NCBI RefSeq assembly: GCF_900101505.1
Contig: NZ_FMZI01000006.1
Location: 62,001 to 126,000, forward strand
Length of the DNA stretch: 64,000 nucleotides
Direction: 5' to 3'
From: Antarctobacter albus
Lineage (GTDB): Bacteria; Pseudomonadota; Alphaproteobacteria; Rhodobacterales; Rhodobacteraceae
Positions 4,558-33,554 of this stretch are shown here, piece after piece. The translations under genes were made by a program, and so were the position numbers. How positions within the stretch are numbered: position 1 is the stretch's first letter; each line of letters begins with the position of its first letter. The notes under the pieces are model-generated. The model was not told the DNA's origin, did not search any database, and was given only the letters and a program-made list of their open reading frames with translations.

Positions 4558-4603
4558 TTTACATTCTTATTTTAGAATGTATATTACATTCCATCTGATG
4601 AAT
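4558..4603 (+). promoter_or_regulatory. Promoter with two ATTC-N8-GAAT operators
   Basis: A strikingly AT-rich island in GC-rich DNA, 29 bp before the start of the membrane protein gene. Probable -35 TTTACA (4558-4563) and -10 TATATT (4580-4585), 16-bp spacer. Two perfect palindromic sites ATTC-N8-GAAT lie at 4563-4578 (inside the spacer) and 4588-4603 (over the expected start point), 25 bp apart. I recall this motif as that of SqrR/BigR-type ArsR repressors, which release DNA on reaction with persulfides. The same motif recurs at 29888 and 31712. The sites are seen; the regulator is inferred. Confidence 0.7.
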
Positions 4604-6958: not shown

Positions 6959-7519
6959 TCAGTGGAGCTTGGCGCTCACGTCTGCGATCGCGTCGTCGAT
7001 CAGTTTGCCCGCGCTGTCGGCAGTCATCTGCTCGGCCACCACGTTGCGCGCGGCAGCCACGGCCACGGCAGCGGCACGGTCGCGCACTTCCTTGACCGCT
7101 GCGGCCTCGGCCGATGCGATCTGGCCTTCGGCGGCCTGAAGGCGGCGGGCGATCGAGGCCTGGATGTCGGCCTTGGCCTGCTCGGCGGCCAGTTCGGCCT
7201 CCTGCTTGGCATGGGCAACGATGCGGTCGGCCTGGCCCTGAACTTCGCGCTGCTTGCGCTCGTAGCTCGCCAGCAACGACTGAGCTTCTTCACGCAGCTT
7301 ACGTGCCTCGTCCAGCTCGTCCTGAATGCCCTCGGCGCGCTTGTCCAGCAGGCCCATGAGCAGGCCCGGCACCTTGAAGTAGATCAGGACGCCGATGAAG
7401 ACGATGAAGCCAAGCAGCACCACGAAATCGGTGTTGCCCAGCGAAAAGAAGGGGCCGGATGCGGCGGCAGCCGGGGTCGCGGCCAGCGCTGCGATCACGG
7501 GAAGGATGAGTTTCTTCAT
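6959..7519 (-). CDS. atpF: F0F1 ATP synthase subunit b
   Basis: A 186-residue peripheral-stalk subunit. It has an N-terminal signal-like hydrophobic segment (about residues 1-20), a membrane helix at about 31-50 ([17 protein letters not shown]) and then a long, charged, Ala/Glu/Gln-rich coiled coil that reaches up to F1. Last gene of the atpI-B-E-X-F cluster, starting 4 bp after the b' gene ends, so the two stalk chains are probably made together. Subunit b rather than b' is assigned from gene order, as in Rhodobacter. Confidence 0.93.
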
Positions 7520-7523
7520 AACC

Positions 7524-8075
7524 TTACCCTTTCAGCTGCGCGTCGACCGCAGCGGCGATCTTGGCGTCGTCGGCGGATGCCCCCAGGGCGGCCACGATGG
7601 CGCCTGCGGTGTCCTTGGCCACGACTTCGACATTTGCAAGGGCGCTGTCGCGGATCTCGGCGATGGCCTTCTCCGACCCGGCAGCCTTGGCCGCGATTTC
7701 CGCGTCGGCCTTTTCCATTGCGACGTCGAGGTCGGCCTTGATGTCGTCACGCGCCTTTTGCGCAATAACCTGGGCCTCGGCCCGGGCATCGGCAAGCGCC
7801 TTGTCATAAGCGGCTTCGGCCTCTTCGGCCTTGCGCTTGAGATCTTCGGCGGCGGCGATGTCGTTGGTGATCGTCCCCTGGCGTTCCGCCAGAACGGCCG
7901 CGATGCGCGGCAGGGCGATGCGGGCCAGCACAAAGTAGATCACGACCAGCGTGATCACCAGCCAGAAGACCTGGTTGCCGATCCAGTCACCGCAGAGCTG
8001 CGGCATCCCGACGGCAGAGCCGTGCGAGTCCACGCAGGTGCTGACGGCTTCGGCTCCGTGAGTTTCGGTCGCCAT
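7524..8075 (-). CDS. atpX: F0F1 ATP synthase subunit b'
   Basis: A 183-residue second b-type subunit, found in photosynthetic bacteria and alphaproteobacteria, where b and b' form a heterodimeric peripheral stalk. It has an N-terminal soluble stretch (about residues 1-30), one membrane helix (about 33-52, [20 protein letters not shown]) and a charged coiled coil ending in an Ala-rich tail. It lies between atpE and atpF on the minus strand, 85 bp after atpE. Clear SD GGAGG precedes the ATG. Confidence 0.93.
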
Positions 8076-9624: not shown

Positions 9625-9943
9625 GGTGCAGATGGCTCCGGTCAGGGTTGGCATGGTGCTAAGCTGGGGGGCGCATCGAGTCAACACGCATGGCGAGCCG
9701 AATATGGGCGCCTCAAGATACTGTAATTAAATGACTATTTCAGAGGCGCCAAGGCAGAGGTCATTCCGCCGCAGCCCGTTTGGGCGCCAACCATGCTGCA
9801 ATTGCAAATTCAACTTAGCGGTTGAGTTTTCCACGGGACCCGCCCAAACCGGCCTAAACCGCTCAGGATCGCCCCATGTTCGCCCGCCCCTTCCATTGCC
9901 GCCGACAAACGCCCGCGGCCACCGCTCTCCGCGCCAGGACAAG
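9625..9943. other. Intergenic region between divergent atpI and arsR-type gene
   Basis: 319 bp without a supported gene. It holds the atp promoter (9656-9684), a perfect 8-bp inverted repeat GGCGCCTC (9707-9714) / GAGGCGCC (9743-9750) flanking 28 bp of AT-rich DNA, and a weaker repeat AGCGGTT/AACCGCT nearer the regulator gene. The AT-rich segment may contain promoter elements for either direction. Confidence 0.5.
9656..9684 (-). promoter_or_regulatory. Probable promoter of the atpIBEXF operon
   Basis: On the minus strand TTGACT (9684-9679) is followed after 17 bp by TAGCAC (9661-9656), about 31 bp ahead of the chosen GTG start of atpI. The -35 is near consensus, the -10 weak. Confidence 0.5.
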
Positions 9944-10285
9944 ATGAGCGACCGGCTCGACACCGTCTTTGCCGCGCTCGCCGATCCGACGCGCCGCCGC
10001 ATCCTGTCGATGCTGCTGGAGGACGACATGGCGGTGACCGATGTCGCCCACCCGTTCGAGATGTCGCTGGCCGCGATATCCAAGCACCTCGTCATCCTGA
10101 CCCGCGCGGGCCTTATCAGCCAGGAAAAGCGCGGTCGCGTGAAATGGTGCAAGCTGGAACCCGACGCCCTGCGCGAAGCCAGCATCTGGATGCAGGCCTT
10201 TGGGCAGTTCGACCAGTTCGACCTCGACGGCTTTGAACGCTTCCTTGAACAGGAACTGGCCCCCGCGCCCGAGGACAAGCCCTGA
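9944..10285 (+). CDS. ArsR-family winged-helix transcriptional regulator
   Basis: A 113-residue winged-helix protein. DPTRRRILSMLLEDDMAVTD and the recognition-helix region SLAAISKHLVILTRAGLI (about residues 15-62) match ArsR/SmtB-type repressors, followed by a wing RGRVKWCKLEP. It has a single cysteine (in VKWCKL), so it lacks the metal-site and persulfide-sensing Cys pairs; it belongs with ArsR proteins of unknown signal that often pair with SRPBCC-type proteins. No such partner is adjacent. Start ATG 9944 follows CAGGACAAG. It is not a good candidate for reading the ATTC-N8-GAAT operators in this window. Confidence 0.85.
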   Translation: MSDRLDTVFAALADPTRRRILSMLLEDDMAVTDVAHPFEMSLAAISKHLVILTRAGLISQEKRGRVKWCKLEPDALREASIWMQAFGQFDQFDLDGFERFLEQELAPAPEDKP

Positions 10286-29880: not shown

Positions 29881-29910
29881 ATGACGCATTCGCAGAAATG
29901 AATGTATACT
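29881..29910 (+). promoter_or_regulatory. Promoter with ATTC-N8-GAAT operator before the SQR fusion gene
   Basis: Perfect ATTC-N8-GAAT at 29888-29903. A good -10 TATACT lies at 29905-29910 with a weak ATGACG (29881-29886) as -35, so the operator fills the spacer. The same motif occurs before the genes at 4632 and 31788. The proposed repressor type (SqrR/BigR) is recalled, not proven here. Confidence 0.7.
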
Positions 29911-29950
29911 TTCGCATAACCCGATTCCCCGCATGCAGGAGGTGCAGGCC

Positions 29951-31624
29951 TTGGAATTCCGCAAGATCACCGACGACATCACCGTCTCTCCCCAGATCAC
30001 CGCAGATCACCTGCAAGAGATCGCCGACGCCGGCTATCGCGCCGTCATCTGCAACCGCCCGGATGGCGAGGGCGCCGATCAGCCGACCTTTGACGAGATC
30101 GCAGCGGCGGCCAAGGCCAAGGGGCTGGAGGTCCGCTATCAGCCCGTGACCTCGGGCAAGGTCCGGGACGAGGACGCCGAGGCCTTTGGCAAGCTGCTGC
30201 GAGAATTGCCCGGCCCGGTCTTTGCCTACTGCCGCACCGGCACGCGGTCGGCGACGCTCTGGTCGCTGAGCCAGGCCAATGCGCTGGCCCCGGCGACCAT
30301 CCTCGCCGCGACCAAGGGCGCCGGCTATGACATGGCCGGTGTCGTGCGGCGCATCGTGAACGGCGGCAAGACCCCCACGGACGAGGGCGACGCCAAGTTC
30401 GACGTCGTGATCGTGGGCGGCGGCGCGGCGGGGATCGCCGTGGCCTCCAGCCTCAAGGCACGCAAGCCGGGGCTGGGCATCGCCATTCTGGACCCGGCCG
30501 ACGTGCACTATTACCAGCCCGGCTGGACGATGGTCGGCGGCGGCGTCTTCGAGGCCGCGACCACGGCCCGCACGATGGGCAGCCTGATCCCGCAGGGTGT
30601 CCACTGGATCAAATCCGCCGTCGCCGCCTTCGAGCCGCAGAACAATGCCGTGGTGCTCGATGGCTGCCGCGTGGTGAAATACGACCGGCTGATCGTCTGC
30701 CCGGGGCTGAAACTGGACTGGCACGGTGTCGAGGGGCTGGTGGACACGCTGGGCAAGAACGGCGTGACCTCGAACTATCGCTATGACCTGGCGCCCTACA
30801 CCTGGGAACTGGTCAGCAAGATGCGCGAGGGGCGCGCGCTGTTCACCCAGCCGCCGATGCCGATCAAATGCGCCGGCGCACCGCAAAAGGCGATGTACCT
30901 GTCGGGCGACCATTGGTTCCGCACCGGTCGACTGAAGGACATCGACATCCAGTTCATGAACGCCGGCGGCCTGCTCTTCGGGGTCAAGGACTATGTCCCA
31001 GCGCTGATGGACTACGTCAGGAAATACGACGCCTCGCTGAACTTCTTCCACAACCTGATCGCCGTGGACGGCCCCGGAAAAACGGCGACCTTCAAGGTCT
31101 CCAAGCCAGACGAAGAGCCGACCGAGGTCACGGTCGACTTCGACATGATGCATGTCTGCCCGCCGCAGGTGGCACCGGATTTCATCCGCGTGTCACCGCT
31201 GGCCGATGCCGCCGGATGGGTCGACGTGGACCAGGCCACGCTGCGGCACAAGACCTATGACAACATCTGGTCGCTCGGGGACGTGATGAACGCGCCCAAC
31301 GCCAAGACCGCCGCCGCCGCCCGGATGCAGGCGCCCGTGGTGGCCGAGAACGTGGTGGCCGACACACGCGGCCTCAGCCCGCATGCGGTCTACAACGGTT
31401 ACGGGTCCTGCCCGCTGACGGTGGAGAAGGGCAAGATCGTTCTGGCCGAGTTCGGCTATGGCGGTGCGCTGCTGCCCTCCTTCCCCAAGTGGGTGATCGA
31501 CGGCACCAAGCCGACGCGCGCCGCCTGGTTGCTCAAGGAACAGATCCTGCCGCCCGTCTACTGGAAGGCCATGCTGCGCGGGAAGGAATGGATGGCCAAG
31601 CCGGAAAGCGTCTCGGCCGGATAA
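29951..31624 (+). CDS. DUF442 phosphatase-like domain fused to sulfide:quinone oxidoreductase-like flavoprotein
   Basis: A 557-residue two-domain protein. Residues 1-115 are a DUF442 (BLH/tyrosine-phosphatase-like) domain with the P-loop CRTGTRS at 94-100, where the HCxxGxxR motif has Tyr in place of His. Residues 148-557 are an SQR-type FAD oxidoreductase: GGGAAG at 156-161, and cysteines in IKCAGAPQK and GSCPLT that I equate with the redox pair of mitochondrial-type SQR. SQR oxidises sulfide at the membrane and passes electrons to quinone, making persulfide or polysulfide. I start at TTG 29951 because AGGAGGT (29937-29943) precedes it at 7 bp; ATG 29933 would overlap that site. It has an ATTC-N8-GAAT promoter and its own terminator. 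Confidence 0.88.
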   Translation: MEFRKITDDITVSPQITADHLQEIADAGYRAVICNRPDGEGADQPTFDEIAAAAKAKGLEVRYQPVTSGKVRDEDAEAFGKLLRELPGPVFAYCRTGTRSATLWSLSQANALAPATILAATKGAGYDMAGVVRRIVNGGKTPTDEGDAKFDVVIVGGGAAGIAVASSLKARKPGLGIAILDPADVHYYQPGWTMVGGGVFEAATTARTMGSLIPQGVHWIKSAVAAFEPQNNAVVLDGCRVVKYDRLIVCPGLKLDWHGVEGLVDTLGKNGVTSNYRYDLAPYTWELVSKMREGRALFTQPPMPIKCAGAPQKAMYLSGDHWFRTGRLKDIDIQFMNAGGLLFGVKDYVPALMDYVRKYDASLNFFHNLIAVDGPGKTATFKVSKPDEEPTEVTVDFDMMHVCPPQVAPDFIRVSPLADAAGWVDVDQATLRHKTYDNIWSLGDVMNAPNAKTAAAARMQAPVVAENVVADTRGLSPHAVYNGYGSCPLTVEKGKIVLAEFGYGGALLPSFPKWVIDGTKPTRAAWLLKEQILPPVYWKAMLRGKEWMAKPESVSAG

Positions 31625-31705: not shown

Positions 31706-31734
31706 TTTTAAATTCTGATTCCTGAATATATATA
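31706..31734 (+). promoter_or_regulatory. Promoter with ATTC-N8-GAAT operator before the SulP gene
   Basis: -35 TTTTAA (31706-31711), perfect ATTC-N8-GAAT (31712-31727) filling the 17-bp spacer, -10 TATATA (31729-31734). The whole 30 bp is AT-rich within GC-rich DNA. Same architecture as at 4558 and 29881. Confidence 0.7.
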
Positions 31735-31787: not shown

Positions 31788-33554
31788 ATGCAACTGCCAC
31801 GCCAACTGACCCGCTACCTGCCCATTCTCGACTGGGCGCGGACTTATGACCGCGAAACCGCCTCTGCCGATGGGCTGGCGGCGGTGATCGTGACGATCAT
31901 GCTGATCCCGCAATCTCTGGCCTACGCGCTGCTGGCGGGCCTGCCCGCCGAGATGGGCCTTTACGCCTCGATCCTGCCGCTGGTGGCCTATGCGATCTTT
32001 GGCACCAGCCGCGCGCTTGCCGTCGGCCCCGTGGCCGTCGTCTCGTTGATGACCGCCGCCGCCATCGGCAACCTGGGCCTGTCGGACCCGGTGGACATTG
32101 CGCTGGCCGCCGGAACGCTGGCCTTCATCTCTGGCGTGATCCTGTCCTTGCTGGGGCTGTTCCGGCTGGGCTTTCTGGCCAATTTCCTGTCGCACCCGGT
32201 CATCGCAGGGTTCATCACCGCCTCCGGCGTGCTGATCGCCGCCTCGCAGCTGAAACATATCTTCGGCATCGACATGCACGGTCACACCCTGACCGAGTTG
32301 ATCCGCACCATGTTCGCGCATCTGGGCGAGACCAACGGCTATACCCTCGTCCTGGGCCTGACGGCGCTGGCCTTCCTGTTCTGGGTCCGCAAGGGGCTGA
32401 AACCGCTGCTGCTGAAAAAGGGGGTCCCGCCGAAACTGGCCGACGTGCTGACCAAGGCCGGGCCGGTGGCCGCCGTCGTCGTGACCACGCTGGCCACCTG
32501 GGTCTTTGGCCTGTCGAATGCCGGGGTCAAGATCGTCGGCGAGATCCCGATGGGCCTGCCGCCGCTGACCGCACCCAGCTTTTCGCCGGCGCTCTGGAAT
32601 GAGCTCTTCATGTCCGCGCTGCTGATCTCGATCATCGGCTTCGTGGAATCCGTGTCCGTCGCGCAGACGCTGGCCGCCAAGCGGCGCCAGCGCATCTCGC
32701 CCGACCAAGAGCTGATCGGCCTGGGCACCTCGAACATCGCCTCGGCGGTCTCGGGCGGCTTTCCGGTGACGGGTGGTTTCTCGCGCTCGGTGGTGAACTT
32801 CGACGCCGGCGCCGCAACCCCGGCGGCGGGCGCCTATACCGCCGTGGGCATCGCCGTTGCGACGCTGCTGCTGACGCCCTTGCTGTTCTTCCTGCCCAAG
32901 GCGACGCTGGCCGCGACGATCATCGTGGCCGTCCTCAGCCTTGTCGATTTCTCGATCCTCAAGAAGGCCTGGGGCTATTCCAAGGTCGATTTCGCCGCTG
33001 TCTTTGCCACCATCGTCCTGACGCTGGGGTTCGGCGTGGAACTGGGCGTTTCGGCGGGTGTGCTGATCTCGATCGGCCTGCATCTCTACAAGACCTCGCG
33101 CCCGCATGTGGCAGAGGTCGGGCTGGTGCCGGAGACCCATCATTTCCGCAACATCAAGCGTCACAAGGTCGAAACGCTGCCGCACCTCGTCACGCTGCGG
33201 GTGGACGAAAGCCTGTATTTCGCCAACGCGCGTTTCCTCGAGGACTACGTTCTTGGCCGCGTCACCTGTGACGAGCCGATCGAACATGTCGTGCTGATGT
33301 TCCCGGCGGTCAACGAGGTCGACATGAGCGCGCTGGAAACGCTGGAAGAACTGAATCGCCGCCTGTCGGAAATGGGCATTCAGTTGCACCTGTCCGAGGT
33401 CAAGGGCCCGGTGATGGACCGGCTGAAACGGTCGCATTTCCTGGACGAGCTGACTGGCAAGGTCTTCCTGTCGCAATACGACGCCTGGCAAGCCCTGCAA
33501 GAGCCTGCCCCCAGCCCGGAACAGGGTTCACCCGCCAAGGTAGGTGCGGCCTGA
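31788..33554 (+). CDS. SulP-family anion transporter with STAS domain
   Basis: A 588-residue SulP/SLC26 carrier: an N-terminal Sulfate_transp domain of about 12 helices (residues 10-435, with ADGLAAVIVTIMLIPQSLAY and SVSVAQTLAAKRRQRISPDQ) and a C-terminal cytoplasmic STAS domain (about 450-565, with ALETLEELNRRL). SulP proteins exchange sulfate, bicarbonate or other anions. Position next to the SQR fusion and a shared operator type point to export of sulfur oxidation products such as sulfite or sulfate, which is an inference. The last 27 bp overlap the convergent phosphoesterase gene. Confidence 0.92.
   Translation: MQLPRQLTRYLPILDWARTYDRETASADGLAAVIVTIMLIPQSLAYALLAGLPAEMGLYASILPLVAYAIFGTSRALAVGPVAVVSLMTAAAIGNLGLSDPVDIALAAGTLAFISGVILSLLGLFRLGFLANFLSHPVIAGFITASGVLIAASQLKHIFGIDMHGHTLTELIRTMFAHLGETNGYTLVLGLTALAFLFWVRKGLKPLLLKKGVPPKLADVLTKAGPVAAVVVTTLATWVFGLSNAGVKIVGEIPMGLPPLTAPSFSPALWNELFMSALLISIIGFVESVSVAQTLAAKRRQRISPDQELIGLGTSNIASAVSGGFPVTGGFSRSVVNFDAGAATPAAGAYTAVGIAVATLLLTPLLFFLPKATLAATIIVAVLSLVDFSILKKAWGYSKVDFAAVFATIVLTLGFGVELGVSAGVLISIGLHLYKTSRPHVAEVGLVPETHHFRNIKRHKVETLPHLVTLRVDESLYFANARFLEDYVLGRVTCDEPIEHVVLMFPAVNEVDMSALETLEELNRRLSEMGIQLHLSEVKGPVMDRLKRSHFLDELTGKVFLSQYDAWQALQEPAPSPEQGSPAKVGAA

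Follow-up and report, generated by a model that had tools for sequence, protein, structure and literature searches.

The window, i.e. the whole 64-kb stretch of DNA analysed, contained four exact copies of the palindrome ATTC-N8-GAAT, which are listed in Table 1 together with the genes they precede. Two of these copies, offset by 25 bp, were found upstream of tsoY, on the promoter where the sequence-only reading had reported two perfect palindromes, and both fitted the extended form ACATTC-N8-GAATGT. Given the position of the hexamers TTTACA-16-TATATT, operator 1 would cover the promoter spacer and operator 2 the likely start point of transcription, with 28 bases between the end of operator 2 and the start codon of tsoY. 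This start codon had AGGAGG a short distance 5' of it and was backed by relatives, the open frame being readable already from the ATG at position 4602. In the window, tsoY was a lone gene, without an adjoining sulfur gene. Judged from the sequence, it is well supported that the palindrome pair represents a double operator of a two-cysteine ArsR repressor of the SqrR/BigR/SoxR type, which would regulate tsoY. The other two copies preceded the genes for a rhodanese-like/sulfide:quinone oxidoreductase (SQR)-like fusion protein and a SulP permease, in agreement with the earlier claim that the motif also occurs at the SQR and SulP loci.

Table 1. Operators, promoter and genes associated with the ATTC-N8-GAAT palindrome in the window
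Feature	Position	Strand	Characteristics
sigma70-like promoter TTTACA-16-TATATT	4558-4585	+	10/12 consensus matches; 1 found versus 0.2 expected in shuffles
operator 1, ATTC-N8-GAAT	4563-4578	.	ATTCTTATTTTAGAAT; overlies the -35/-10 spacer
operator 2, ATTC-N8-GAAT	4588-4603	.	ATTCCATCTGATGAAT; around the likely transcription start
tsoY, 403 amino acids	4632-5843	+	TsoY family, Cys form (NF047644 score); C336 in CPFV
third ATTC-N8-GAAT site	29888-29903	.	before the rhodanese-SQR fusion gene
rhodanese-like/type III SQR-like fusion	29933-31624	+	TIGR01244 over cut-off; NF049943 188 bits, below the cut-off of 525
fourth ATTC-N8-GAAT site	31712-31727	.	before the SulP gene
SulP family anion permease	31788-33554	+	TIGR00815 443 bits, cut-off 380

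The sequence-only reading took the palindrome for the SqrR/BigR motif, and it equals the deduced SqrR site of Rhodobacter capsulatus given in the excerpted text of PMC9774250; a word-start search of the texts of PMC9143464 and PMC9995734 gave no match to the motif. In the window, the four copies compared with 0.52 expected, and at least four were reached in none of 100 dinucleotide shuffles. When the spacers N5 to N11 were pooled, five sites were found versus 4.04 expected, i.e. no overall excess, four of the five being N8. The count of four given by the sequence-only reading held, and its placement of all sites in promoters held in the window but not genome-wide. Indeed, 28 sites were retrieved from the genome (36 contigs, 5.26 Mb), 14 of them intergenic and 14 within genes predicted by a simple ORF caller. 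This intergenic share exceeded expectation (binomial p of about 1e-6 at a coding share of 88%, measured with the same caller on the 64-kb window only, and 4e-4 at 80%). Frequent occurrence in non-promoter DNA, which the sequence-only reading had held against its own claim, thus applied to half of the copies, although the intergenic ones were in excess. Compared with the other spacers (N4 to N7 and N9 to N12; mean 19.5 sites), N8 was mildly over-represented (28 sites, p 0.04). The flanked form [CT]ATTC..GAAT[AG] was present in 9 of the 14 intergenic versus 4 of the 14 genic sites of this genome, which is only suggestive (p 0.064). A reversed-pattern control (3 versus 28 sites) was set aside as evidence, because the reversed core contains TAA, and words containing TAA are presumably rare in this genome; the spacer controls were used instead. 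As the 8-base core was equally common within and between genes, a single exact match is weak evidence, and the claim of an operator before tsoY is therefore carried by comparative data.

Besides the four window sites, the 14 intergenic sites included three that preceded soxC-like, soxX-like and YeeE-type genes, the former two names being assigned from Pfam and neighbouring genes. A SoxB gene was located between the soxC-like and soxX-like genes of this sox cluster, which contained two motif sites. The remaining seven intergenic sites had genes for MBL-fold, glutamate synthase-like, TetR, SPOR or ECF sigma proteins as neighbours, or none close by, and no sulfur link was evident from these neighbouring genes. 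Motif sites preceded MBL-fold protein genes at L013:1501-1516 and L026:1954-1969, the former, counted as genic, actually lying 26 bases 5' of the likelier ATG of its gene. Another site (C34:587632-587647; L034:4433) was found 59 bp 5' of a putative ALA synthase gene (hemA, by look), with an ECF sigma gene on its opposite side.

The comparative data consisted of 57 related tsoY loci with 41-96% protein identity, the nearest named relative being that of Mameliella sp. CS4 (96%); 56 of the records were of Rhodobacteraceae type or alphaproteobacterial, and the other was a gammaproteobacterial MAG. The exact palindrome was present within 250 bp 5' of tsoY in 45 of these loci, whereas none of the other spacers between N4 and N12 occurred in more than one of the 57. 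It also ranked first when all 4-mer palindromes were counted without a preset motif in these upstream regions, where 77 sites occurred, all from -110 to -31, versus three across the remaining 694 kb of the loci. At least two sites were found in 32 loci, spaced by 24-26 bp in 28 of them. A -35-like hexamer preceded site 1 by 5 bases in 25 of the 29 tandem upstream regions (28 loci plus the window), and the -10-like hexamer had no single position (10 at +1, 13 at +5 and 2 at +3). The N8 columns were variable (0.15-0.59 bits), indicating that the upstream regions are not near-copies of each other. Since 33 of the 57 loci had a smc-like neighbour in common, 32 of them with an exact site, most of the operator conservation resides inside one inherited locus, with a minor share found elsewhere. 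This share comprises 13 exact-site loci without a smc-like neighbour in the ORF calls, five of which (Shimia type) have a neighbourhood of their own. The Marivita loci were considered as a separate genomic setting and rejected as such, the smc-like neighbour being present there too. That the palindromes are chance matches without function would fit the commonness of the 8-base core and the location of half of its genomic copies within genes, but 45 of the 57 relatives keep the motif at most 110 bases from the tsoY start; this conservation already refutes the idea, which is hardly conceivable any longer.

Twelve loci lacked the exact site, among which L062 had a site with one mismatch and L092 and L095 had none. 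The nine others (L074, L075, L076, L077, L079, L081, L082, L090 and L097) formed one clade (support 98/97), with a stray one-mismatch match in L077 and L082. All nine carried a second palindrome, GTGAY-N3-GTCAC, 67-69 bases 5' of tsoY, which occurred neither in the window nor in any of the 48 remaining loci. It recurred elsewhere in six of the nine loci. In L075, L081 and L097 it preceded CydA-type genes, in L077 it preceded an SQR-III-type gene, and in L076 it separated a Crp/Fnr gene from a stretch of YeeE and persulfide dioxygenase type; two further places had no known target. The tsoY flanks contained genes of the Crp/Fnr, YeeE, persulfide dioxygenase-like and rhodanese-SQR types in L076; Crp/Fnr, SQR-III-like, cytochrome b561, SLAC1 and again Crp/Fnr in L077; and CydD/CydC-like and CydA in L075, L081 and L097 (CydA of the former two being named by likeness to that of L097, and several flank-gene names lying below NCBIfam cut-offs). 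No such sulfide-type genes were seen in the flanks of L074, L079, L082 and L090. GTGAY-N3-GTCAC is likely the operator of a Crp/Fnr-type regulator that would also cover the cydA-, SQR- and persulfide dioxygenase-type genes. Control of tsoY by a sulfide circuit thus seems to have survived a change of regulator, the simplest candidate for the new one being the Crp/Fnr-type protein encoded nearby.

In L146, which stems from a member of the Pseudomonadota outside this family, one strand carried tsoY together with rhodanese-SQR and SulP genes within approximately 10 kb, in the order peroxiredoxin, SLAC1, tsoY, multiheme cytochrome c, an unassigned 1.7-kb stretch, rhodanese-SQR, SulP and rhodanese, so that all three gene types sharing the motif in the window were included. 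No sulfur neighbours of tsoY were present in L147 and L148. Overall, tsoY clusters elsewhere contained persulfide dioxygenase-like, YeeE, SQR-like, SulP, rhodanese and cytochrome bd genes. Together with the operator conservation in relatives, these clusters support the link of the membrane protein with sulfide/persulfide metabolism proposed by the sequence-only reading. Bona fide SLAC1 (PF03595) genes adjoined tsoY in L146 (L146:8966-10093) and lay near it in L077 (L077:10336-11331), so that a single sulfur locus would encode two proteins of channel fold. Furthermore, two similar-looking 1-Cys peroxiredoxin genes flanked tsoY in L095 (L095:3448-4107 and 7416-8075), and one lay two genes from tsoY in L146. 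Among 198 genomes of the family, one per genus and with statistics that ignore phylogeny, rhodanese-SQR was present in 25 of 53 tsoY genomes versus 24 of 145 others (p 2e-5), and SoxB in 47 of 53 versus 80 of 145 (p 5e-6). Of 54 genomes with a match to tsoY, 53 were entered as tsoY genomes, the fragment in G510 (E 2.7e-4) being entered as without tsoY, and the match in G538 was a fragment of 136 residues; among the 49 genomes with rhodanese-SQR, two (G482 and G527) matched over the SQR part only. The rhodanese-SQR gene of G341 (G341:C83:1330-3003) had one in-frame TGA, representing either a selenocysteine (Sec) codon or a broken gene. Across the Pseudomonadota, tsoY was rare (12 of 398 genomes).

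Concerning the regulator, a search of the genome with the HTH_5 profile (PF01022) retrieved nine places, ArsR proteins missed by that model staying invisible in this survey. Two of the nine proteins were SqrR-like, as judged by eye from the translations, and only these two were compared with the PDB. The first was encoded by a lone gene on contig C9 (best PDB match with the SqrR set 6o8l-6o8o, 3e-31); the second was encoded inside the sox cluster on contig C35 (PDB match 2e-34) and is probably SoxR. In both proteins, the cysteines in LMILCHL and YD(I/L)FC aligned with those of the SqrR PDB chains. An ArsR protein with two conserved cysteines, which the sequence-only reading had proposed to look for, is thus encoded in two copies. 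Both proteins scored under the cut-off of 155 of the NCBIfam BigR equivalog (110 and 94.5 bits), and the ArsR gene within the window (9731-10285) lacked the SqrR cysteine pair. Neither SqrR-like regulator gene adjoined tsoY, and there are two candidates. It is a distinct possibility, albeit not the favoured one, that the operator is read by the C35 protein SoxR instead of the C9 protein, or by both, the signal being thiosulfate-derived sulfane sulfur. Indeed, Hyphomicrobium SoxR shares 53% identity with SqrR and responds to sulfane sulfur, according to the excerpted text of PMC10451225, and two motif sites were located in the sox cluster of the present genome; yet, the published motif belongs to SqrR of R. 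capsulatus, and C9 and C35 are equally compatible with the operator found here. Such a reading by SoxR would be a variant of the best explanation and could hold alongside it.

The product of tsoY belonged to the TsoY family NF047644 (514.3 bits, cut-off 150) and scored 67 bits with the selenoprotein TsoY equivalog NF047643, under its cut-off of 250. The sequence-only reading had called it an uncharacterised membrane protein, which was right as to function, but the family had already been named. Codon 336 was TGC (Cys), no Sec codon being present there, and C336 was the sole invariant cysteine in all 58 sequences, located in CPxV on direct translation. The CxxV around it fits the motif UxxV tabulated for selenoprotein TsoY in the excerpt of PMC13188914, where Tso stands for three selenoprotein operon, where both YeeE/TsuA and TsoY are tabulated with Sec forms, and which states no function of TsoY. 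A Pfam search of TsoY up to an E value of 1 retrieved no families, including neither PF03595 nor PF04143.

An AlphaFold2 model of TsoY (pLDDT 89, pTM 0.88), built from an alignment of 53 of the 58 sequences (leaving out L054, L056, L064, L065 and L091), displayed ten helices of at least 22 residues, in line with the ten-helix membrane protein read from the sequence earlier. A Foldseek search against the PDB yielded TehA, SLAC1 and SLAH structures at all ranks from 1 to 19 (probability 0.99-1.00), with no E value below 0.001 and the best match at 3.1e-3 (TMq 0.52, TMt 0.65). A TehA/SLAC1 fold of TsoY is tentatively predicted by the model. A profile of TsoY had a single chance match among the PDB sequences (E 3.6), and HMMER comparisons of TsoY with the SLAC1 family were not significant (E 61 for the SLAC1 model on TsoY; best E 0.26 in reverse). 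Aligning the TsoY and SLAC1-family alignments with hhalign gave a probability of 1-2%, with P values of 0.046 and 0.025 for this one pair, and the -glob option aligned seven columns only. Without a confidence cut, this weak profile alignment spanned TM1, TM7 and TM9 in order, placing C336 on F262 of Escherichia coli TehA and P337 on the following residue. In the HiTehA chain, this residue pairs with index 262, and HiTehA F262 is the equivalent of the SLAC1 gate residue F450, which is followed by the helix breaker P451, as described in the excerpted text of PMC10645844. The TM9 motif read YALVCPxVAL in TsoY versus WALSFPLAAL in the SLAC1 family, with YAL(V/I)CP in 57 of 58 TsoY rows and WALSFP in 13 of 23 SLAC1-family rows. 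In this weak alignment, a cysteine hence occupies the place of the gate phenylalanine of TM9. As the Foldseek, Pfam, HMMER and profile matches fell short, the register of C336 and F262 rests on this weak alignment and the helix order.

Catalytic redox sites typically have a lone invariant cysteine that Sec can replace. This favours TsoY being a membrane redox enzyme or sulfur transferase of merely TehA-like fold, whose C336 or Sec would pass on or reduce sulfane sulfur, and the 1-Cys peroxiredoxin genes near tsoY in L095 and L146 point in the same direction. The absence of a second conserved cysteine and of a Pfam domain, the 19 best fold matches all being anion channels, and the bona fide SLAC1 genes beside (L146) or near (L077) tsoY speak against such an enzyme, which is considered unlikely. 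A route for tellurite, selenite or C4-dicarboxylate, induced by sulfide only within a wider stress response, would suit the nearest fold, TehA having been named for tellurite resistance. Both the clusters and the operators instead suggest a connection with sulfide genes, and neither tehB nor a dicarboxylate gene was noticed beside tsoY among the annotated neighbours, which makes this route distinctly improbable.

With the operators and their conservation, the presence of regulators, the gene clustering and the TsoY family taken from the sequences, it is rather probable that an SqrR-type repressor frees tsoY under persulfide and that TsoY is a SLAC1-fold pathway for sulfur anions with a thiol gate. 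At low persulfide, repressor dimers would cover the start site as well as the -35/-10 region, keeping tsoY off. When sulfide is oxidised and persulfides accumulate, the two repressor cysteines would become sulfur-bridged and the repressor would be released, so that tsoY would be made together with the rhodanese-SQR, SulP, YeeE-type and Sox genes. Repression by two dimers and release upon persulfidation represent the standard SqrR scheme as it may apply to tsoY, from which we infer repressor binding and induction. The invariant cysteine of TsoY, a selenocysteine in relatives, would replace the pore-gating phenylalanine in helix 9, and TsoY would most likely let one of the small sulfur anions (sulfite, thiosulfate or (per)sulfide) pass the inner membrane, with the gate under the control of the thiol or selenol; the gate position of C336, the substrate and the direction of transport are what we infer from the fold and the regulon. 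A carrier for sulfur species, as supposed by the sequence-only reading, would be plausible. Yeast Ssu1, a sulfite exporter, belongs to the TehA/SLAC1 superfamily, which helps the first guess that TsoY may export sulfite or thiosulfate after sulfide oxidation.

Compared with known systems, the locus resembles the SqrR regulon of R. capsulatus in its motif, the cysteine pair of the ArsR family regulator and an SQR-type gene under the motif, but it differs in the tandem operator of tsoY and in the two SqrR-like paralogues, as predicted from sequence. TsoY fits its family by score and by the match of its cysteine motif with the Sec motif, whereas it is the Cys form, below the cut-off of the Sec equivalog. 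With the TehA/SLAC1 channels (PF03595), it shares the ten-helix fold suggested by Foldseek and the proline after the gate position in TM9, but not a Pfam match, and the gate phenylalanine is a cysteine in the weak alignment. Like the YeeE/TsuA thiosulfate transporters (PF04143), it is a membrane protein of a (predicted) sulfide regulon, and Sec forms occur in both, according to the excerpt of PMC13188914; in contrast, TsoY has no PF04143 match and only one conserved cysteine. The SqrR operator type and the name of the TsoY family were already known. The link between TsoY and an SqrR regulon, the SLAC1-like fold and the idea of a Cys/Sec gate are provisionally new in the literature compared, which did not cover the primary description of TsoY.

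The Cys form of TsoY is now placed in a predicted sulfide/persulfide regulon, with a proposed fold and one residue to mutate, which ties this orphan selenoprotein family to bacterial sulfide handling, and the role of its Cys/Sec becomes testable in a culturable marine bacterium. More tentatively, TsoY may be a SLAC1-fold anion channel that is controlled by persulfide or relays it, with a sulfur- or selenium-reactive Cys/Sec gate and with a control by sulfide that outlasted a swap of regulators. If true, this would represent a channel with a thiol or selenol as the gate in its pore, kept under sulfide control despite a change from an SqrR-type to probably a Crp/Fnr-type regulator.
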